Source: Geobacter sp. AOG2
Lineage (GTDB): Bacteria; Desulfobacterota; Desulfuromonadia; Geobacterales; Pseudopelobacteraceae
Assembly: GCF_019972295.1 (NCBI RefSeq)
Contig: NZ_BLJA01000001.1
Location: 3,379,574-3,443,573 of the forward strand
Length of the DNA stretch: 64,000 nucleotides
Reading direction: 5' to 3'
The position numbers were made by a program, and so were the translations under genes. The notes beneath the pieces are model-generated. The model made no database searches, had not been told where the DNA came from, and saw only the letters and a program-made list of their open reading frames with translations. Within the stretch, counting starts at the first letter, position 1; each line of letters opens with the position of its first letter. This document shows positions 38,859 to 54,330 of the stretch, piece by piece.

Positions 38859-39149
38859 TCAGGAACAGCAGTTCCCGCCCGGCAGGCGCAGCTTCCGTTC
38901 CTGGAACCATTCGTTGATCATGCCCGAGGCGCAGCCGACCCCGGCGTCCACCGTGATGGCCTTGACCGGGCAGTTGAGGGCGCAGGCGCCGCACTCCATG
39001 CAGGCGTCCCGGTCCCGGAGGGCGGCCTTCTTCTCCGCCAGGGAGAACACCTGGTGGGGGCAGACCTCCAGGCACCTGCCGCAGCCGATGCAGGCCGCCC
39101 GGTCCAGCTCAAGGGTTACCACGTCGCGCAAATATCTGAAGCCTTCCAT
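38859..39149 (-). CDS. hgcB: HgcB, ferredoxin of mercury methylation
   Basis: 96-residue two-cluster ferredoxin that supplies low-potential electrons to the corrinoid of HgcA. It has both 4Fe-4S motifs (CIGCGRCLEVCP and CMECGACALNCP), the HgcB-specific lone cysteine in DAGVGCASGM and the C-terminal vicinal pair (GGNCCS), all three known HgcB features. AAAGGAG precedes ATG 39149. It starts 17 bp after the hgcA stop, in the order hgcA-hgcB known from methylating bacteria. Confidence 0.95.
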   Translation of the reverse strand: MEGFRYLRDVVTLELDRAACIGCGRCLEVCPHQVFSLAEKKAALRDRDACMECGACALNCPVKAITVDAGVGCASGMINEWFQERKLRLPGGNCCS

Positions 39150-39166: not shown

Positions 39167-40345
39167 CTACAAAAATCTTCCCGCCAGGAGCAACACCACG
39201 CTCGCCAGCAGCGCGCCGCCCATGGCCGGCAGGGCGATGCGCATCTCTTTCTTCACCCCCGAACGGGAGGTATAGGTGCTGCATCCGGTGAAATTGAGGG
39301 TATGGAAGGCGCTCACCGCGGGCAGGGCCAAAAAGAGCGCCATGGTCGCCGGTATGCCCCAGGCGGGCCCTCCGGCGAGAAGGTAGAATGCCCCGCTCCA
39401 GATCAGCCCCGCCACGGCCCCCTTGACGGAAAAACTTTTGCCCGGCAGCCAGGGGAGGAGCAGGGGGCCGATCACGACCCCGGTCACAAGCGCGCCCGCG
39501 TAGGCCAGAAAGGCCGTGATGCCCGCCGAAAGGCCCCCCAGCGCGGCTGCGAGTAGAAATACGATACCGGCGATGATTGCGCCGGATTTGAGGGCCATCA
39601 CCAATTCCACCGGAATCAGCACCAGCCGTTCGTAGAAGGTGAAGGTCAGTCGTTGCATGGCTGGCGTGGTGACCATGCCGTTATCCAGGTATTCGGGCAG
39701 GTCTGCGGCCCGGATTGAGGCATAGTCGACCGAGAAGCCGCAACGCCGGGCCACCTGGTGGGCCGACACTCCGGGGGCGCCCAGGATCGGCAGGATCAGG
39801 CGGCGGTGGCTGACCACCTTGGCCAGGCCGGTGGCCGCGACCCGGCGCACCACTTCGCCGGTGCCGAAGGTCCCCTTGCCCGCCGCGCACCAGACGTTGA
39901 TCCCGTAGGTCTCCAACACCAGCAGCCAAAGGTTTCGTCCCGTAGCTGTACGACGGATAATGTCGTAACTCATCTTGTAGTTGGCGGTCACCAGCACCGG
40001 CGCCTCCGGTGTCGGCCGGCCAATGGCGTAGAGGCCCGGCGGCACCATGTAGCTCATCCGGCCGATGCCCCAGCGGGCTTTGCAGGCCCCCAGCCGGTCC
40101 CTGAACCCAAGCTCCGATGAAATTACCGGCACCCGGCCGGCCGGGGTCTCCAGCCACTCCATGAAACCGGGTACCTTGTCGGTGATCTCTCCGCCCCCGG
40201 CGGAGGTGGGGGGACCTCAGCAGGGCGGCTTGTCCGGGCCGTCGGAGGAGGTGCCGCATGCGGCGGCCGGCGGGCGATGCTCCGTCTCCGTGGCCCTGCG
40301 GATGCTCTTGATCTTTATGGCTCCACCATTATTTAGTTGCAGCAT
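39167..40345 (-). CDS. hgcA: HgcA, mercury-methylating corrinoid protein, with an in-frame TGA (candidate selenocysteine)
   Basis: HgcA transfers a methyl carbanion from a corrinoid to Hg(II). The corrinoid-binding domain has the diagnostic cap-helix motif NVWCAAGKGTFGT (lower-ligand Cys at residue 153 counted from ATG 40345). About four membrane helices follow, ending with NFTGCSTYTSRSG. GGGAGGT lies 8 bp before ATG 40345 and none lies before the internal ATG at 40162. From 40345 the frame meets TGA at 40219-40217 (codon 43, after Cys) and continues open for 349 codons. The N-terminal extension (MLQLNNGGAIKIKSIRRATE and so on) is Cys/Pro-rich. If the TGA is read as Sec the product is 392 aa; otherwise translation stops early or restarts at 40162 (331 aa). 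It overlaps the marR stop. Confidence 0.9.
40189..40219 (-). promoter_or_regulatory. In-frame TGA codon with candidate bacterial SECIS stem-loop in hgcA
   Basis: On the minus strand TGC-TGA-GGT (TGA at 40219-40217) is followed, after 11 nt, by CTCCGCC-GGG-GGCGGAG (40205-40189), a perfect 7-bp GC stem. Bacterial SECIS elements are hairpins located directly 3' of the UGA at about this distance. selA is present at 52921. The loop is only three G by this pairing (five with the closing C-G pair opened), so fit to SelB needs a fold calculation. Confidence 0.55.
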
Positions 40346-40800
40346 GCAATTTTACCTCCCTGCGACGGGTCGTTGCCGGCCTTGGCCACGGCCTCGTTCA
40401 GAAGCCCCAGGGATCTGACGACCGTCTCGCGTTCGAACCCGCTCATGTGGGAGAAGATGCGCTCGACCGTGGCCGCCATGTAGCGGTCGATCTTTTCCAG
40501 TACCTGCCTGCCCGCGTCGGTCAGGCCCAGGAGGCTGACCCGCCGGTCGCCGGCCGAGACCCGCCGCGTTATCAGCCCCTTGCCTTCCAGGCTTTTGGCC
40601 TGGCGGCTGAAGGTGGTCACGTCCATGCCCAGTTCCTCGGCCACCTGCTGCATGGAGGGGCTGCCCATCCTCCTGATCTCGAACAGGATGTGGCTCTGGG
40701 CCATGGATACCTGCTCGCCGCAACACTCGTCGCAGCAGGACGCGTTCAGCAGGCCGAAGCGGCGCACGAATAGCTGTAGTTCTTCCCTGACTGAATCCAT
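40333..40800 (-). CDS. MarR-family regulator with extra cysteine clusters, upstream of hgcAB
   Basis: About 155 residues from ATG 40800 (MDSVREELQLFV); a TTG at 40833 would add 11 residues but lies beside the operator. It has a winged-helix MarR domain (SMQQVAEELGMDVTTFSRQAKSLEGK, then the basic wing AGDRRVSLLGLTDAG). Unusual are the cysteine cluster NASCCDECCGEQ in the first helix region and a C-terminal ACCN, suggesting thiol or metal/metalloid sensing. It is the first gene of a marR-hgcA-hgcB operon; its TAA overlaps the hgcA start by 13 bp. Two matching palindromes near its promoter and its 3' end are likely binding sites. Confidence 0.88.
   Translation of the reverse strand: MDSVREELQLFVRRFGLLNASCCDECCGEQVSMAQSHILFEIRRMGSPSMQQVAEELGMDVTTFSRQAKSLEGKGLITRRVSAGDRRVSLLGLTDAGRQVLEKIDRYMAATVERIFSHMSGFERETVVRSLGLLNEAVAKAGNDPSQGGKIACCN
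40335..40351. promoter_or_regulatory. Second copy of the MarR palindrome, over the hgcA start codon
   Basis: AGTTGCA (40335-40341), GCA, TGCAATT (40345-40351) matches the promoter-proximal operator AGTTGCA-N3-TGCAACT at 13 of 14 arm positions. It covers the hgcA ATG and the marR stop. It may be a second repressor site (roadblock) or coincidence. Confidence 0.45.
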
Positions 40801-40836
40801 AGAACGGTTCTCCCGGGTGTTCAGGCTACACAATTA

Positions 40837-40918: not shown

Positions 40919-41986
40919 ATGAGCGAACACCTGTCCCGAAAACTCTCCTTCCTCGACCGCTGGCTGACCCTGTGGATCTTTGCCGCCATGGTTCTGGGCG
41001 TGGGGCTCGGCTGGTTCGTGCCGGGGATGGAGGGCTTCATCAACCGTTTCCAGGTGGGCACGACCAATATCCCCATCGCCGCGGGGCTGATCCTGATGAT
41101 GTACCCGCCCTTTGCCAAGGTGAAGTACGAGGAGATGCCCCAGGTCTTTCGCAACAAGAAAATCCTGGGCCTGTCGCTGGTACAGAACTGGTTCATCGGG
41201 CCGCTCCTGATGTTCGTGCTGGCCGCGCTCCTTCTGCCGGACAAGCCGGAGTACATGGTGGGGCTGATCATGATCGGCCTGGCGCGCTGCATCGCCATGG
41301 TGATCGTCTGGAACGAACTGGCCAGGGGCAACACCGAATACGCCGCCGGGCTGGTGGCCTTCAACAGCATCTTCCAGGTGTTGTTCTACAGCGTCTACGC
41401 CTGGTTCTTCATCACCGTGCTGCCGCCGTTGATCGGCCTCAAAGGGGTGGTGGTGGCTGTGGGGATCGGCCAGATTGCGAAGAGCGTCTTCATCTATCTG
41501 GGCATCCCCTGCATCGCCGGGGCCCTGACCCGCCTCGTCGGCCTGAAGCTGGTGGGCAAGGAGCGGTACCACGCGAACTTCGTGCCCAGGATCGGCCCCA
41601 TCACCCTGATTGCGCTGCTCTTCACCATCGTGGTCATGTTCAGCCTCAAGGGGCAACTGATCGTGCGCCTGCCCCTGGACGTGCTGCGCATTGCCCTGCC
41701 GCTTCTCATCTATTTCGTGGTCATGTTCCTGGTATCGTTCTGGATGGGCAAGCGGCTGGGGGCCGATTACGGCAAGACCACCACCCTGGCCTTTACCGCG
41801 GCCAGCAACAATTTCGAGCTGGCCATCGCCGTTGCGGTGGCGGTGTTCGGGCTCAATTCCGGGGCCGCCTTTGCCGCCGTGATCGGTCCGCTGGTGGAGG
41901 TGCCGGTGATGATCGGCCTGGTCAACGTGGCCTTCCGGTTCCAAAAACGCCTGTTCGCCGACGAGGTCCCGTCCCGGAACCTGTAA
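40919..41986 (+). CDS. acr3: ACR3-type arsenite efflux permease
   Basis: 355-residue inner-membrane transporter with ten predicted hydrophobic segments. Family features include the [16 protein letters not shown] start, [16 protein letters not shown] with the conserved Cys, and [20 protein letters not shown] near residue 300. It exports arsenite (and perhaps antimonite) using the proton motive force. It is divergent from the marR-hgcAB operon and followed 83 bp later by an arsenate reductase gene. Confidence 0.93.
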
Positions 41987-42069
41987 CGTCATCGTGACCG
42001 ATCGGCAATCAGGCCTTCACAGATTTTTGATAACATGTCGCAACATCGGTGACCGGGAGGATATGGTTC

Positions 42070-42507
42070 ATGGAAAAAAAGATCAAGGTGCTCTTCGTGT
42101 GTGTCCATAACAGCGCCCGCAGCCAGATGGCCGAGGCGTTTCTCAATCACCTGGCCGGCGACCGCTTCGAGGCGCACAGCGCGGGATTGGAACCGGGCAC
42201 GCTCAATCCGCTGGCGGTGGAGGCCATGGCCGAGGCGGGCATCGATATCTCCGCCAACCGGACAAAGAGTGTCTTCGATTTCTTCAAACGCGGCGCCATC
42301 TTCAACTATGTCGTAACGGTCTGCGACGGCGCCAACGCCGAACGCTGCCCCATCTTTCCCGGCATCACCCACAGGATGCACTGGAGTTTCGAAGACCCGG
42401 CAGCGCTGGCGGGGACGCACGCGGAGAAGCTGGAGGCGGTCCGCCGGATCAGGGACCAAATCCGGGACGCCGTGGCTTCGTTCGTCACGGAGCAGGGCGC
42501 CCCATAG
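42070..42507 (+). CDS. arsC: Arsenate reductase, thioredoxin-coupled LMW-phosphatase type
   Basis: 145 residues of the low-molecular-weight tyrosine phosphatase fold. The P-loop is [14 protein letters not shown] (CX5R), with the NRTKS region and a second thiol region [11 protein letters not shown] that would carry the disulfide relay to thioredoxin. It reduces arsenate to arsenite for export by the upstream ACR3 protein. GGGAGGA precedes the ATG. Confidence 0.92.
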
Positions 42508-42510
42508 TTC

Positions 42511-42539
42511 TTGACAATGGGGACCTGACAAGGTAATTT
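42511..42539 (+). promoter_or_regulatory. Sigma70 promoter of the fluoride-responsive crcB unit
   Basis: Consensus TTGACA (42511-42516), 17-bp spacer, TAATTT (42534-42539). The transcript would start about 8 nt before the riboswitch aptamer. Confidence 0.8.
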
Positions 42540-42553
42540 GACCGAAATCCTAT

Positions 42554-42628
42554 GGCGATGGAGTTCGCCGCAACCGCTTGCCAAAGCTGATGACTCCTGC
42601 TCTTTACACACAAGGGCGGGAGTTTTTT
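42554..42628 (+). promoter_or_regulatory. Fluoride (crcB-type) riboswitch with terminator expression platform
   Basis: The aptamer 42554-42600 carries the conserved pieces in order: GGCGATGG, GTTCGCC, AACCGC, then GCTGATGACTCCTGC. Its last arm (ACTCCTGCTC) can pair instead with GGGCGGGAGT followed by T6 (42623-42628), an intrinsic terminator. Fluoride binding should block that pairing and let transcription reach crcB, about 160 nt downstream. Confidence 0.9.
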
Positions 42629-42790
42629 CATTTTCATGGTTTGTTTGGCGCGCGCAATCATGTATGTATGGGTTTCGGCCGCCCTCGCGCGCCGGGCGTC
42701 GATCCGGGGGTGACATCTCCCGGAAGCCCGGTATACTACCTGGTGTCCCGCAACCAACCGTACGGGCCACCGACAAGGAGAACGTTCCCG

Positions 42791-43168
42791 ATGAAGACAG
42801 CCGCTACGATTGCCCTGTTCTGCGCCGGCGGAGGGCTTGCCCGCTACTATCTCTCGGGTTGGGTCTACGGCTTCCTGGGCCGGGCCTTTCCCTACGGCAC
42901 CCTTGCCGTCAACGTCGTCGGAGCCTACCTTATCGGCCTGGTCATGGAGCTGGGCCTGACCGGCACGGCGATCTCCGGTACCCTGCGGGTAGGGTTGACG
43001 GTCGGCTTCATGGGGGGACTGACCACCTTTTCCACCTTCAGTTATGAGACCTTCAAGCTGCTGGAGGACGGCCAGTTCGGGGTGGCGTTCGTGAATGTCC
43101 TGGCGAACGTGGCGGTCTGCCTGGTCTTTACGTGGCTCGGTATTTTTACCATCCGTTCGATTTCGTAG
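42791..43168 (+). CDS. crcB: CrcB/Fluc fluoride channel
   Basis: 125-residue, four-helix fluoride exporter. Landmarks are FPYGTLAVNVVGAYLIG (conserved Asn) and VGFMGGLTTFSTFSYE (Phe box and TTFSTF motif). The ATG at 42791 has AAGGAG upstream and the reading frame begins after the riboswitch; a longer in-frame start at 42578 lies inside the aptamer and is rejected. It is followed 11 bp later by a DUF190 gene. Confidence 0.95.
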   Translation: MKTAATIALFCAGGGLARYYLSGWVYGFLGRAFPYGTLAVNVVGAYLIGLVMELGLTGTAISGTLRVGLTVGFMGGLTTFSTFSYETFKLLEDGQFGVAFVNVLANVAVCLVFTWLGIFTIRSIS

Positions 43169-43179
43169 GGGAGGCGGTC

Positions 43180-43527
43180 ATGACAAAACTGGTTGGCGAG
43201 AATGTATTGATGCGGATCTTTATCGGGGAAAGCGACCGCTACGGTCACAAGCCGCTCTACGAGGTACTGGTGGAGCTGTTGCGCACGGAAGGGTTTGCCG
43301 GGGCAACGGTCCTGCGCGGCGTGTGCGGGTTCGGCGCCCACAGCGTCTATCACAGCCAGAAGCTTTTGGACCTGTCCGCCGACCTGCCCCTGATCGTCGA
43401 GGTCGTGGATACCCAGGAAAAGATCAACGCCATCATGCCGCGCATCGACGAGATGATGGGCGGCGGCATGATCACCCTGGAAAAGGCCACGGTCATCCGC
43501 TACAGCCACAAGCAGCAGGCGGAGTAG
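43180..43527 (+). CDS. DUF190 family protein (CrcB-associated)
   Basis: 115 residues, PII-like alpha/beta fold (MRIFIGESDRYGHKPLYEVL, AGATVLRGVCGFGAHSVYH, DLPLIVEVVDTQEKINAI, GMITLEKATVIRY). This family is often adjacent to crcB and may modulate the channel or bind a nucleotide; that role is inference. GGGGAGG precedes ATG 43180. Confidence 0.88.
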   Translation: MTKLVGENVLMRIFIGESDRYGHKPLYEVLVELLRTEGFAGATVLRGVCGFGAHSVYHSQKLLDLSADLPLIVEVVDTQEKINAIMPRIDEMMGGGMITLEKATVIRYSHKQQAE

Positions 43528-43615
43528 CCCGGCCCCCGAGCCGCTTGGCGCTCCGGTTTTTGCGGAGGGAAGCCGGACGCGCCGTCGCTGTTTCTGCACG
43601 TACCGCCTTTGTGTC

Positions 43616-43659
43616 TTGACATCTTCCCGGCGGTTGAGTATATGATTATTTAATCATAT
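43616..43659 (+). promoter_or_regulatory. Promoter and operator of the ArsR gene
   Basis: TTGACA (43616-43621), 17-bp spacer, TATATG (43639-43644). A perfect 9-2-9 palindrome, ATATGATTA-TT-TAATCATAT (43640-43659), overlaps the -10 box, the classic place for an ArsR-family repressor. Confidence 0.8.
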
Positions 43660-43676
43660 ATATCCGGAGCGTTCTC

Positions 43677-43988
43677 ATGGTTGCCGCCAACTATCTGGCC
43701 GATGTTCTCAAGGCCATTGCCCAGCCGACCCGGCTGAAGATCATCGACTTCCTGCGGGAGGGGGAGAAGTGCGTTTGCGAGATCTTCCCCGCCATCGGCG
43801 AAGAACAATCCAACACCTCCCGGCATCTCAACTACATGCATAACCACGGCATCCTCTCCCGGCGCAAGGACGGCGTGAAGATCCTCTACGTCGTCAGGCA
43901 TTCCGAGGTTTTTCAGATAGCCGACCTGGCCGCTTCCATCTGCGCCAGAGAAACCAAACACCGTACCAGGGCGTTGAAGGGAAAATAG
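43677..43988 (+). CDS. arsR: ArsR-family metalloregulator
   Basis: 103 residues with an ArsR winged helix (LKAIAQPTRLKIIDFLREGE, SNTSRHLNYMHNHGIL, RRKDGVKILYVV). The helix-3 metal motif appears as EKCVCEIF, close to the ELCVCDL site that binds As(III)/Sb(III). It is autoregulated through the operator over its promoter and leads the ArsP-thioredoxin-CcdA gene group. Confidence 0.92.
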   Translation: MVAANYLADVLKAIAQPTRLKIIDFLREGEKCVCEIFPAIGEEQSNTSRHLNYMHNHGILSRRKDGVKILYVVRHSEVFQIADLAASICARETKHRTRALKGK

Positions 43989-44004
43989 TTTTTTTTGCGC
44001 AGGT

Positions 44005-44030
44005 ATATGATTGCCTGCTCAACTAATCAT
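44005..44030 (+). promoter_or_regulatory. Separated half-sites of the ArsR operator before the permease gene
   Basis: ATATGATT (44005-44012) and TAATCAT (44024-44030) are the arms of the ArsR operator set 11 bp apart, just before the permease start. A second ArsR contact is possible. Confidence 0.35.
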
Positions 44031-44039
44031 GGAGTAGCC

Positions 44040-44993
44040 ATGCTGAAACAGTTCGCCGACTATCTTGTCTTCACCCTCATAGGGCTTGCCCCCGGTTCGC
44101 GTCCGGGCGAGGCGCTGGATTTCTTCGTCTACGACACCCTCAAGATCTTTCTGCTCCTGACCACCATCGTCTTTGTGGTGGCCATCATCCGCTCCTATTT
44201 CTCGCCGGAGCGGACCCGGCGCATCCTTTCCCATAATCGCGAATACGTGGGCAACGTGCTGGCGGCGCTCCTGGGGATCGTCACCCCCTTCTGCTCCTGT
44301 TCGGCGGTGCCGCTGTTCATCGGATTCGTGGAGTCGGGCATCCCGCTGGGGGTGACCTTTTCGTTCCTGATTTCCTCGCCCATGGTCAACGAGATCGCCC
44401 TGATCATGCTCTGGGGACTGTTCGGCTGGAAAATAGCCATGATTTACGTGGGCACGGGCCTGCTGGTGGCCGTCACGGCCGGGATCGCGATCGGCAGACT
44501 CAGGATGGAAAAATATGTGCAGGACTACGTTTGGGAGGTCAAGGTCGGGCAGGCGGGGATCCAGGAACAGAGCTTCCGGGAAAAGATCGACTATGCCCGG
44601 AACTATACCCGTGAACTCCTGAAGAAAATATGGCCCTACGTGGTGATCGGCGTCGGCATGGGGGCCTTTATCCACGGCTATGCCCCGGCCGATTTCCTCC
44701 TGAAATACGCGGGGCGGGGCAACCCCTTTGCCGTGCCGCTGGCCGTGCTGATCGGCGTGCCGCTGTATTCCAACGCCGCCGGCATCATCCCGGTCGTGCA
44801 GGCCCTGATGGAGAAGGGCATGGCGGTCGGGACGGTGTTGGCCTTCATGATGGCGGTAACGGCCCTGTCGTTCCCCGAGGCGGTCATCCTCAAAAATGTG
44901 CTCAAGACCCGGCTGCTGGTCACCTTTTTCGGCATTGTGGCGACCGCTATCGTTATCGTCGGGTATCTGTTCAATGCCATACTCGCAACCTGA
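44040..44993 (+). CDS. arsP: ArsP/DUF318-family permease
   Basis: 317-residue membrane protein with about eight helices. The family signature TPFCSCSAVPLFIGF (about residues 82-96) contains the paired cysteines that in ArsP bind trivalent organoarsenicals; FSFLISSPMVNEIAL and GVPLYSNAAGIIPVV follow. ATG 44040 is chosen by the normal N-terminus and GGAG; a start at 43995 has no site. ArsP exports methylarsenite; other DUF318 members may move other metals. It is followed by thiol-disulfide genes that could keep the cysteines reduced. Confidence 0.85.
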   Translation: MLKQFADYLVFTLIGLAPGSRPGEALDFFVYDTLKIFLLLTTIVFVVAIIRSYFSPERTRRILSHNREYVGNVLAALLGIVTPFCSCSAVPLFIGFVESGIPLGVTFSFLISSPMVNEIALIMLWGLFGWKIAMIYVGTGLLVAVTAGIAIGRLRMEKYVQDYVWEVKVGQAGIQEQSFREKIDYARNYTRELLKKIWPYVVIGVGMGAFIHGYAPADFLLKYAGRGNPFAVPLAVLIGVPLYSNAAGIIPVVQALMEKGMAVGTVLAFMMAVTALSFPEAVILKNVLKTRLLVTFFGIVATAIVIVGYLFNAILAT

Positions 44994-52920: not shown

Positions 52921-54330
52921 GTGCCACAAGAGATATTGAGACAGATACCGAAGGTTGACCGTGTCCTGGCGTGGGCCGGGACGGCCTCGCTCGTCGCTTC
53001 CCATCCGCGCCCGGAACTGGTGACGGCGATCCGTGAAGTACTGGAACGGTTGCGTGCCGCCGCCCGCAGCGGGGTTTCCTGCGACCTTTCCGAGGAGGGT
53101 GTCGTTGCCCTGGTAAGCGCCGAGCTCGACCGTCGCTGCACGCCCAGCTTGCGGGATGTGGTCAACGCATCCGGCGTGGTGATTCACACCAACCTGGGGC
53201 GCTCTCCCCTGGCCGATGATGCCGAAGAGGCCATCCACCGGGCCTCCCGCGGTTACTCGAACCTGGAATTCGATCTCACCACCGGGGAGCGGGGTACGCG
53301 CTATGCCCACGTGGAGGGCTTGATCTGCGAACTGACCGGCGCCGAAGCGGCCCTGGTGGTCAACAACAATGCCGCCGCGGTTATTTTGGCCCTGTCGTCT
53401 TTGGCCCAGGGGCGGGATGTGATCGTCTCGCGGGGGGAACTGGTGGAGATCGGCGGGTCGTTCCGGATCCCCGAGGTGATGCTGCAGAGCGGGGCCCATC
53501 TGGTGGAGGTCGGTGCGACCAACCGGACCCACGTCCGGGACTACCGTGGGGCGATCAACGACGCCACGGCGCTCCTGCTCAAGGTGCATACCAGTAATTT
53601 TGCCGTGGTCGGCTTTACCGCAGAGGTCACGACGGAAGAGATGTCGGCCCTGGGGCGCGAGGCCGGGGTCCCGGTCATGGTGGATGCCGGCAGCGGTTGC
53701 CTGATCGATCTGGCCGCCTACGGCATTGCCGGTGAACCGACCGTGCGCCGCTACCTGGCTGCGGGCGCCGACGTGGTTACCTTTAGCGGCGACAAGCTCC
53801 TGGGCGGTCCCCAGGCCGGGATCATCGCCGGGAAGCGGGAGATCGTGGTGCCCATGAAGCGCCACCCGCTCCTGCGCGCCCTGCGGATGGACAAGCTCTC
53901 CCTGGCGGCCTTGGAGGCGACCTTGCGGCTCTACCGCGACGAGCGCCGCGCGGTCCGTGAAATCCCGACGCTCCGCATGCTGACGGCGACTCCGGCCGAC
54001 CTGTCGCGGCGTGCCGACCGCATCCTCGGGATGCTGCGCAGGCGTCTTCCCAAGACGGTCACCCTGGTGAAGCAGCAGGGTGAATCGAGCGCCGGCGGCG
54101 GATCGCTTCCCCTGCTCGGGCTGCCCACGAGCCTCATCGAGGTGCGCATCGGCGGCGCGTCAGCGCAGCAGATCGAACAGCGCCTGCGGCAGACATCGAC
54201 CCCGGTAGTGGGGCGTATCCAGCGGGACCGGTTTCTGCTGGACGTCCGCACCATCCTCGATCACGATTTTCCCAACCTGGCGCTCTCGCTCGGCGAAGCG
54301 GCGGCCTTATTGTCGGAGAGTGGCCAATGA
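52921..54330 (+). CDS. selA: SelA, L-seryl-tRNA(Sec) selenium transferase
   Basis: Pyridoxal-phosphate enzyme that converts Ser-tRNA(Sec) to Sec-tRNA(Sec) using selenophosphate. GTG start, 469 aa. Landmarks are [66 protein letters not shown] and the PLP-binding Lys292 in [13 protein letters not shown]. It shows the organism uses selenocysteine, which matters for hgcA above. selB and selD are not in the window. It overlaps ispD (ATGA). Confidence 0.96.

Follow-up and report, generated by a model that had tools for sequence, protein, structure and literature searches.

HgcA produces methylmercury that enters food webs, and relatives of Geobacter are important methylators. Selenoprotein forms of HgcA and of its partner HgcB have been described: the relevant parts of a 2026 review (PMC13188914) give HgcA as a selenoprotein with the motif CU and HgcB as a selenoprotein with the motif GVGU, in both cases citing Haft and Gwadz (2023), and a passage of a 2024 paper (PMC11588087) that cites the same work states that some hgcA and hgcB homologs may be selenoproteins. 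A term search of the main text of a 2008 paper that the review cites for HgcA (PMC2398784) returned no CO dehydrogenase. In HgcB, a C-terminal tail carries the pair Cys94/Cys95, which has been proposed to transfer Hg(II) or CH3Hg+, and loss of both tail Cys lowered Hg methylation by 95%, as stated in the sections consulted of that study (PMC7305189). A selenoprotein HgcA with CU is therefore already published, and the gene described below is a well-supported addition.

The window (the whole stretch of 64,000 nucleotides from Geobacter sp. AOG2 that was analyzed) contains the following features, with positions counted within it:

38859..39146, minus strand: hgcB, a ferredoxin in the Cys form (GVGC, C-terminal CCS), matching NF040864 at 130.3 bits (cut-off 99)
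39167..40345, minus strand: hgcA as it would be read through its TGA as Sec, 392 residues with Sec at 43
40189..40205, minus strand: SECIS-like hairpin CTCCGCC-GGG-GGCGGAG, with a 7-bp stem and a GGG loop, placed 11 nt past the TGA
40217..40222, minus strand: TGC-TGA (TGC 40222-40220, TGA 40219-40217), the putative Cys42-Sec43 of the tail motif PPCUGP
40333..40833, minus strand: MarR-family regulator with the Cys cluster SCCDECCGEQ, its end overlapping the hgcA start by 13 nt
40354..40360, minus strand: GGGAGGT, the likely hgcA ribosome-binding site, within the final part of the MarR gene and called from sequence only
42545-42606, plus strand: fluoride riboswitch, 60.6 bits
52936..54291, plus strand: selA, encoding selenocysteine synthase (coordinates as spanned by the family match; G000:C1:3432509-3433864)

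The hgcA frame opens at ATG 40345, reaches TGC at codon 42 and TGA at codon 43, and then runs through 349 open codons to a TAG ending at 39167; this layout, including the ribosome-binding site, had been described in an earlier note on this DNA and was confirmed in every part. The product matches NCBIfam NF040863 at 456.6 bits (cut-off 275) over residues 72-391, carries the cap-helix motif NVWCAAGK, is encoded next to hgcB, and clusters with Oryzomonas japonica in trees. The putative Cys42-Sec43 lies in an N-terminal tail, 109 residues ahead of the Trp of NVWC, and PPCUGP contains the CU motif by which the published selenoprotein HgcA is recognized. A Cys-Sec pair is thus common to the window protein and to the selenoprotein HgcA of Haft and Gwadz (NF040863), as that work is cited in the sources above, and the NF040863 match in the window HgcA starts after the tail. 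Because NVWC, the motif of the domain, offers only one Cys, we infer that the published CU is the tail motif PPCUGP. Details of the tail were not found in the literature searched, outside of which Haft and Gwadz (2023) falls, and we make no claim that they are unpublished.

The HgcA of Pseudodesulfovibrio mercurii ND132 has the same corrinoid domain with a Cys ligand, and a membrane domain, but its ligand Cys is residue 93 (as given in the part of PMC11588087 that treats it) as against residue 153 in the window HgcA; with the ligand at residue 93, the ND132 protein would have no room for a tail at the same distance. The selenoprotein HgcB (NF040864, GVGU, as outlined in PMC13188914) is likewise encoded by the partner gene of hgcA, whereas HgcB in the window has GVGC. 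Since GVGC carries Cys, HgcB was rejected as a Sec protein in the window. The GVGC form was found in 70 of 81 loci including the window's own (the others being the best 80 of 118 relatives), that is, in all loci where an HgcB match was found, with TGAs at the end of the HgcB tail taken as terminators.

The in-frame TGA of hgcA is almost certainly read as selenocysteine, and hgcA very probably encodes a selenoprotein in which UGA 40219-40217 would be decoded by SelB, tRNA-Sec(UCA), SelA, and SelD, directed by the hairpin 11 nt downstream, for which the support is comparative. The earlier note had proposed this decoding and the resulting Cys-Sec pair in an N-terminal extension; alternation with Cys at the same site, covariation of the hairpin, and the presence of sel genes all support it, and most of the checks suggested in that note that were carried out favored it.

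A scan of the genome collection yielded 118 relatives; the comparison kept the best 80, such that the sample leans to close relatives (two loci, L025 and L069, come from one MAG). Among these best 80 of 118, the site matching codon 43 holds TGA in 68, Cys in eight, identified as CC followed by Gly-Pro, and no motif in four. The alignment of CC against CU that the earlier note had called for therefore finds Cys in place of the TGA. The same note had regarded homologs lacking Cys or Sec, or lacking the tail, as evidence against its proposal; the four loci without the motif are L025, which is cut by its contig end, L074 and L080, which have other Cys-rich N-terminal stretches (CSCC and CCCG) that do not place the motif at the matching position, and L079, whose HgcA has no tail. 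The distance from the TGA to the Trp of NVWC is 109 residues in 65 of the 68 TGA loci and in the window, and 110 in L068, L070, and L075. The protein alignment is invariant at residue 43, but its rows had been picked for having the site, and the invariance was therefore not used as evidence. Across the window's order, HgcA was identified in 97 of 141 genomes, with at least one in-frame TGA anywhere in the HgcA match in 85, none in 11, and one genome (G110) uninformative, its HgcA being a fragment that ends short of the site. That TGA is the usual state of HgcA in this order is an addition of the present analysis. One Sec form (L064:3025) reads C-L-U instead of C-U ahead of Gly-Pro.

Bacterial SECIS elements comprise a hairpin that lies directly 3' of the UGA and whose loop opens with a G. 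The perfect 7-bp stem-loop reported earlier was located at 40205-40189, and its covariation was evaluated with 500 shuffles in 67 of the 69 Sec rows, the distant L075 and L078 being omitted. In these 67 rows, 94.0% of hairpin cells were paired, with 29 double-change cells, whereas versions of the hairpin slid along the alignment reached at most 74.2%. The covariation score was 0.280 against a shuffled mean of 0.161 and was matched by none of the 500 shuffles, a statistic to be read with the caveat that kin sequences may beat shuffles without any structure. Pairs with changes on both sides numbered three in the 67 Sec rows, a count that does not exceed the shuffled expectation, since 203 of 500 shuffles also attain it. 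Among Cys rows, of which six of eight were used (L076 and L081 omitted), 61.9% of cells were paired, equal to shuffles. The SECIS-like character first proposed for the hairpin is thus borne out by covariation in the Sec forms (n = 67) and not in the Cys forms (n = 6), and the Sec rows support a hairpin directly downstream of the UGA whose loop begins with G. The hairpin G22 is conserved in at least 90%, and a subclade has a variant hairpin with loop GGTCA and a 6-bp stem. When folded alone, the hairpin sequence of the window did not exceed its shuffles in stability (z 0.37, with 126 of 200 shuffles folding equally well); its minimum-energy fold is a different one, and the hairpin appears in the centroid. 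Because single-sequence folding gives no support, support for the hairpin is comparative. The hairpin also overlaps codons of a conserved Gly-rich stretch, and its conservation is therefore partly a protein constraint. A search of the whole window with Rfam at gathering thresholds gave the fluoride riboswitch as the sole match.

Switches between Sec and Cys numbered at least six on the best tree and five to six in bootstraps, with three forced by well-supported branches; the tree was built from 75 rows of the protein body without the tail (L069 and L077 omitted as short, and four rows lacking the site unused). A second CC pair, mostly 14 residues ahead of the site, is present upstream in six of the eight Cys forms, an observation added by the present analysis, as compared to two of the 68 Sec forms that have at least 22 upstream residues, one Sec locus being too short (Fisher p 3.4e-6). 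At least one Cys occurs in the same stretch in 58 of those 68 Sec forms. On independent tree pairs, the association was not significant (1.9 for, 0.6 against), and the sequences are for this reason only suggestive of a second Cys pair that compensates for the loss of Sec.

An AlphaFold model of HgcA (mean pLDDT 86.1; 69 sequences, with three of 71 prepared rows omitted) assigned mostly low confidence to residues 1-50, high confidence to 51-60, and a first strand to 61-67, with the folded part beginning at about residue 51 and five membrane helices at 237-391. The best PDB match was the HgcAB model 9a0b_A. The Cys-Sec pair is predicted to sit in a flexible N-terminal tail ahead of the corrinoid domain. 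The cobalamin loop (150-156) was also of low confidence, and the model is therefore silent on whether tail and loop meet.

By analogy with HgcB, and in line with the Hg-handling site suggested in the earlier note, this tail could act as a chalcogenolate arm, binding Hg(II) or CH3Hg+ and handing it to or from the cobalamin/Cys153 site jointly with the HgcB C-terminal Cys pair, a role that we consider to have slightly less than an even chance. Like the HgcA tail, which is predicted to be flexible, the Cys94/Cys95 tail is flexible and bears a vicinal chalcogen pair, and it can reach cobalamin; it differs in being C-terminal and in containing Cys only, whereas the HgcA pair is N-terminal and Cys-Sec. 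Compared with a thiolate, a selenolate would bind Hg with higher affinity and faster exchange. The tail is dispensable in some HgcA, since L079 has none. The main rival to a role in Hg transfer is that HgcA is a selenoprotein whose Cys-Sec pair serves redox rather than Hg binding, either as a selenenylsulfide switch or in keeping cobalamin or HgcB reduced, which is a serious possibility if a less than even one. Sec is usually a redox residue, and the partner HgcB is a ferredoxin. However, the pair is placed in a tail for which no fold is predicted and resembles the C-terminal Cys pair for which the HgcB study proposes Hg transfer in the portion cited (PMC7305189), and a second vicinal pair is commoner in Cys forms, as metal binding predicts, albeit non-significantly on independent tree pairs.

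Without Sec decoding, only a 42-residue peptide would be made, and HgcA output in such cells would therefore depend on selenium supply. If most Geobacter relatives need Sec for full-length HgcA, the availability of selenium could directly restrict methylation. A broader scenario for the Geobacter order, combining an ancestral selenoprotein HgcA, a tail acting as an Hg(II)/CH3Hg arm, selenium-dependent methylation, and gain of a Cys pair about 14 residues upstream on loss of Sec, is rather unlikely to hold in its entirety.

The window's own genome, a single contig of 3.92 Mb, encodes one selA, within the window at about 52936-54291 as previously noted, together with two selB over cut-off (G000:C1:468021 and 514567), two tRNA-Sec genes with anticodon UCA (G000:C1:514103 and 2649465), and one selD over cut-off, itself with an in-frame TGA. 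The look for selB, selC, and selD that had been advised thus recovered all three, and with selA the genome holds the full set. The start of SelD reads A-A-G-Sec-A-A-K, a pattern shared with known SelD proteins that contain Sec.

Genomes behind chosen loci numbered 26, 15 with Sec forms and 11 with Cys or motif-less HgcA. Among the former, tRNA-Sec was found at 56 bits or more in 15 of 15 and SelB over cut-off in 14 of 15; the L024 genome has tRNA-Sec, with no SelB over cut-off and no SelA. SelB and tRNA-Sec co-occur in 8 of the other 11, the L031 genome having no SelB and a single tRNA-Sec match of 47.8 bits (cut-off 47), and the L076 and L079 genomes yielding neither. Across the window's order, SelB was detected at 1e-70 in 77 of 85 TGA genomes and in 8 of 11 without TGA. 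Its absence at this threshold (8/85 versus 3/11; p 0.11), and the absence of SelB, tRNA-Sec, and SelA together (3/85 versus 3/11; p 0.019), were compared among related and hence non-independent genomes. Five SelB-less TGA genomes (G040, G048, G075, G076, and G087) have tRNA-Sec or SelA. None of the three parts was found in the TGA genomes G042 (78% complete), G107, and G118 (each 99% complete), or in G115, G131, and G139, which lack the TGA.

The MAGs G107 (the genome of L023) and G118 (that of L040) both carry the TGA and the hairpin, and at 99% completeness they show no SelB at 1e-70, no SelA, and no tRNA-Sec above its cut-off, which is the main result against the Sec reading. Absence of selB or selC, which the earlier note had counted against its own proposal, does not apply to the window's genome, and neither gene was found in these two MAGs. 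They are also what favors reading of the UGA by near-cognate suppression or another tRNA, and not as Sec. Yet the TGA alternates with Cys, the hairpin covaries, and SelB is present in 77 of the 85 TGA genomes of the order, and we regard suppression as very improbable. Because SelA is present in all three sister MAGs of L040 (L030, L032, and L071), bin loss or recent loss is the likely source of the gap in L040.

The two SelB proteins of the window's genome are 76% identical and accompany two tRNA-Sec genes, yet only one selA, and one selB match starts about 370 nt past a tRNA-Sec. Two SelB matches occur in 7 of the 141 genomes of the order, and a literature search on duplications of selB or tRNA-Sec found no paper.

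A further alternative is that the TGA is a true stop that ends a 42-residue peptide, with HgcA beginning internally, for example at ATG 40162. Such a start would keep the entire matched part of the HgcA profile, which opens at residue 72, and L079 is a relative whose HgcA has no tail. Nevertheless, an ATG stands at the place of ATG 40162 in no more than 4 of 69 Sec loci, window included, which agrees with the earlier note in disfavoring this start, and an in-frame start with a ribosome-site match of at least four bases within 60 codons occurs in only 12 of the 69. A start at residue 62 would moreover cut into the fold, as the predicted first strand spans 61-67, and the Cys forms read through the same residues uninterrupted. 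Between close Sec locus pairs, which overlap and are non-independent, changes at codon positions 1/2/3 numbered 13/21/76 in codons +1 to +10 past the TGA and 29/26/120 in codons +11 to +20, suggesting that the stretch between the TGA and ATG 40162 evolves as coding sequence does. Ahead of the TGA, codon positions show little bias (141/100/169, and 88/84/127 in codons -14 to -2), and translation of the first 42 codons therefore rests on the ribosome site and the conserved motif. Considering these observations, a true stop is a most improbable reading, slightly more so than suppression. A sequencing error, which the earlier note had entertained, or a disabling mutation has a negligible chance and is refuted by the comparison, since nothing favors either save that TGA is a stop codon and the same TGA recurs in 68 of 80 related loci (best 80 of 118) from many separately sequenced genomes.

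If most of these relatives do require Sec for full-length HgcA, gene callers that take TGA as a stop would start such hgcA genes too late, and laboratory constructs may miss the tail or fail in hosts that lack a compatible Sec system. The alternation of Cys and Sec provides natural pairs for probing tail function.

In 27 of 81 loci including the window's own (one a partial match), hgcA is immediately preceded by a MarR homolog of at least 57% identity. With its conserved Cys cluster, the MarR-family protein is a candidate sensor of thiols or metals for hgcAB. For Geobacter daltonii, a MarR gene in this upstream position has already been mentioned in a passage of PMC10349881. On the plus strand at 40919-44993, hgcAB has arsenic-type genes as neighbors. 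They encode an ACR3 efflux protein over its cut-off, an ArsR-family regulator, and two proteins that score below the NCBIfam cut-offs: an ArsC-like phosphatase and a permease of the ArsP type with distant similarity to SaoE.
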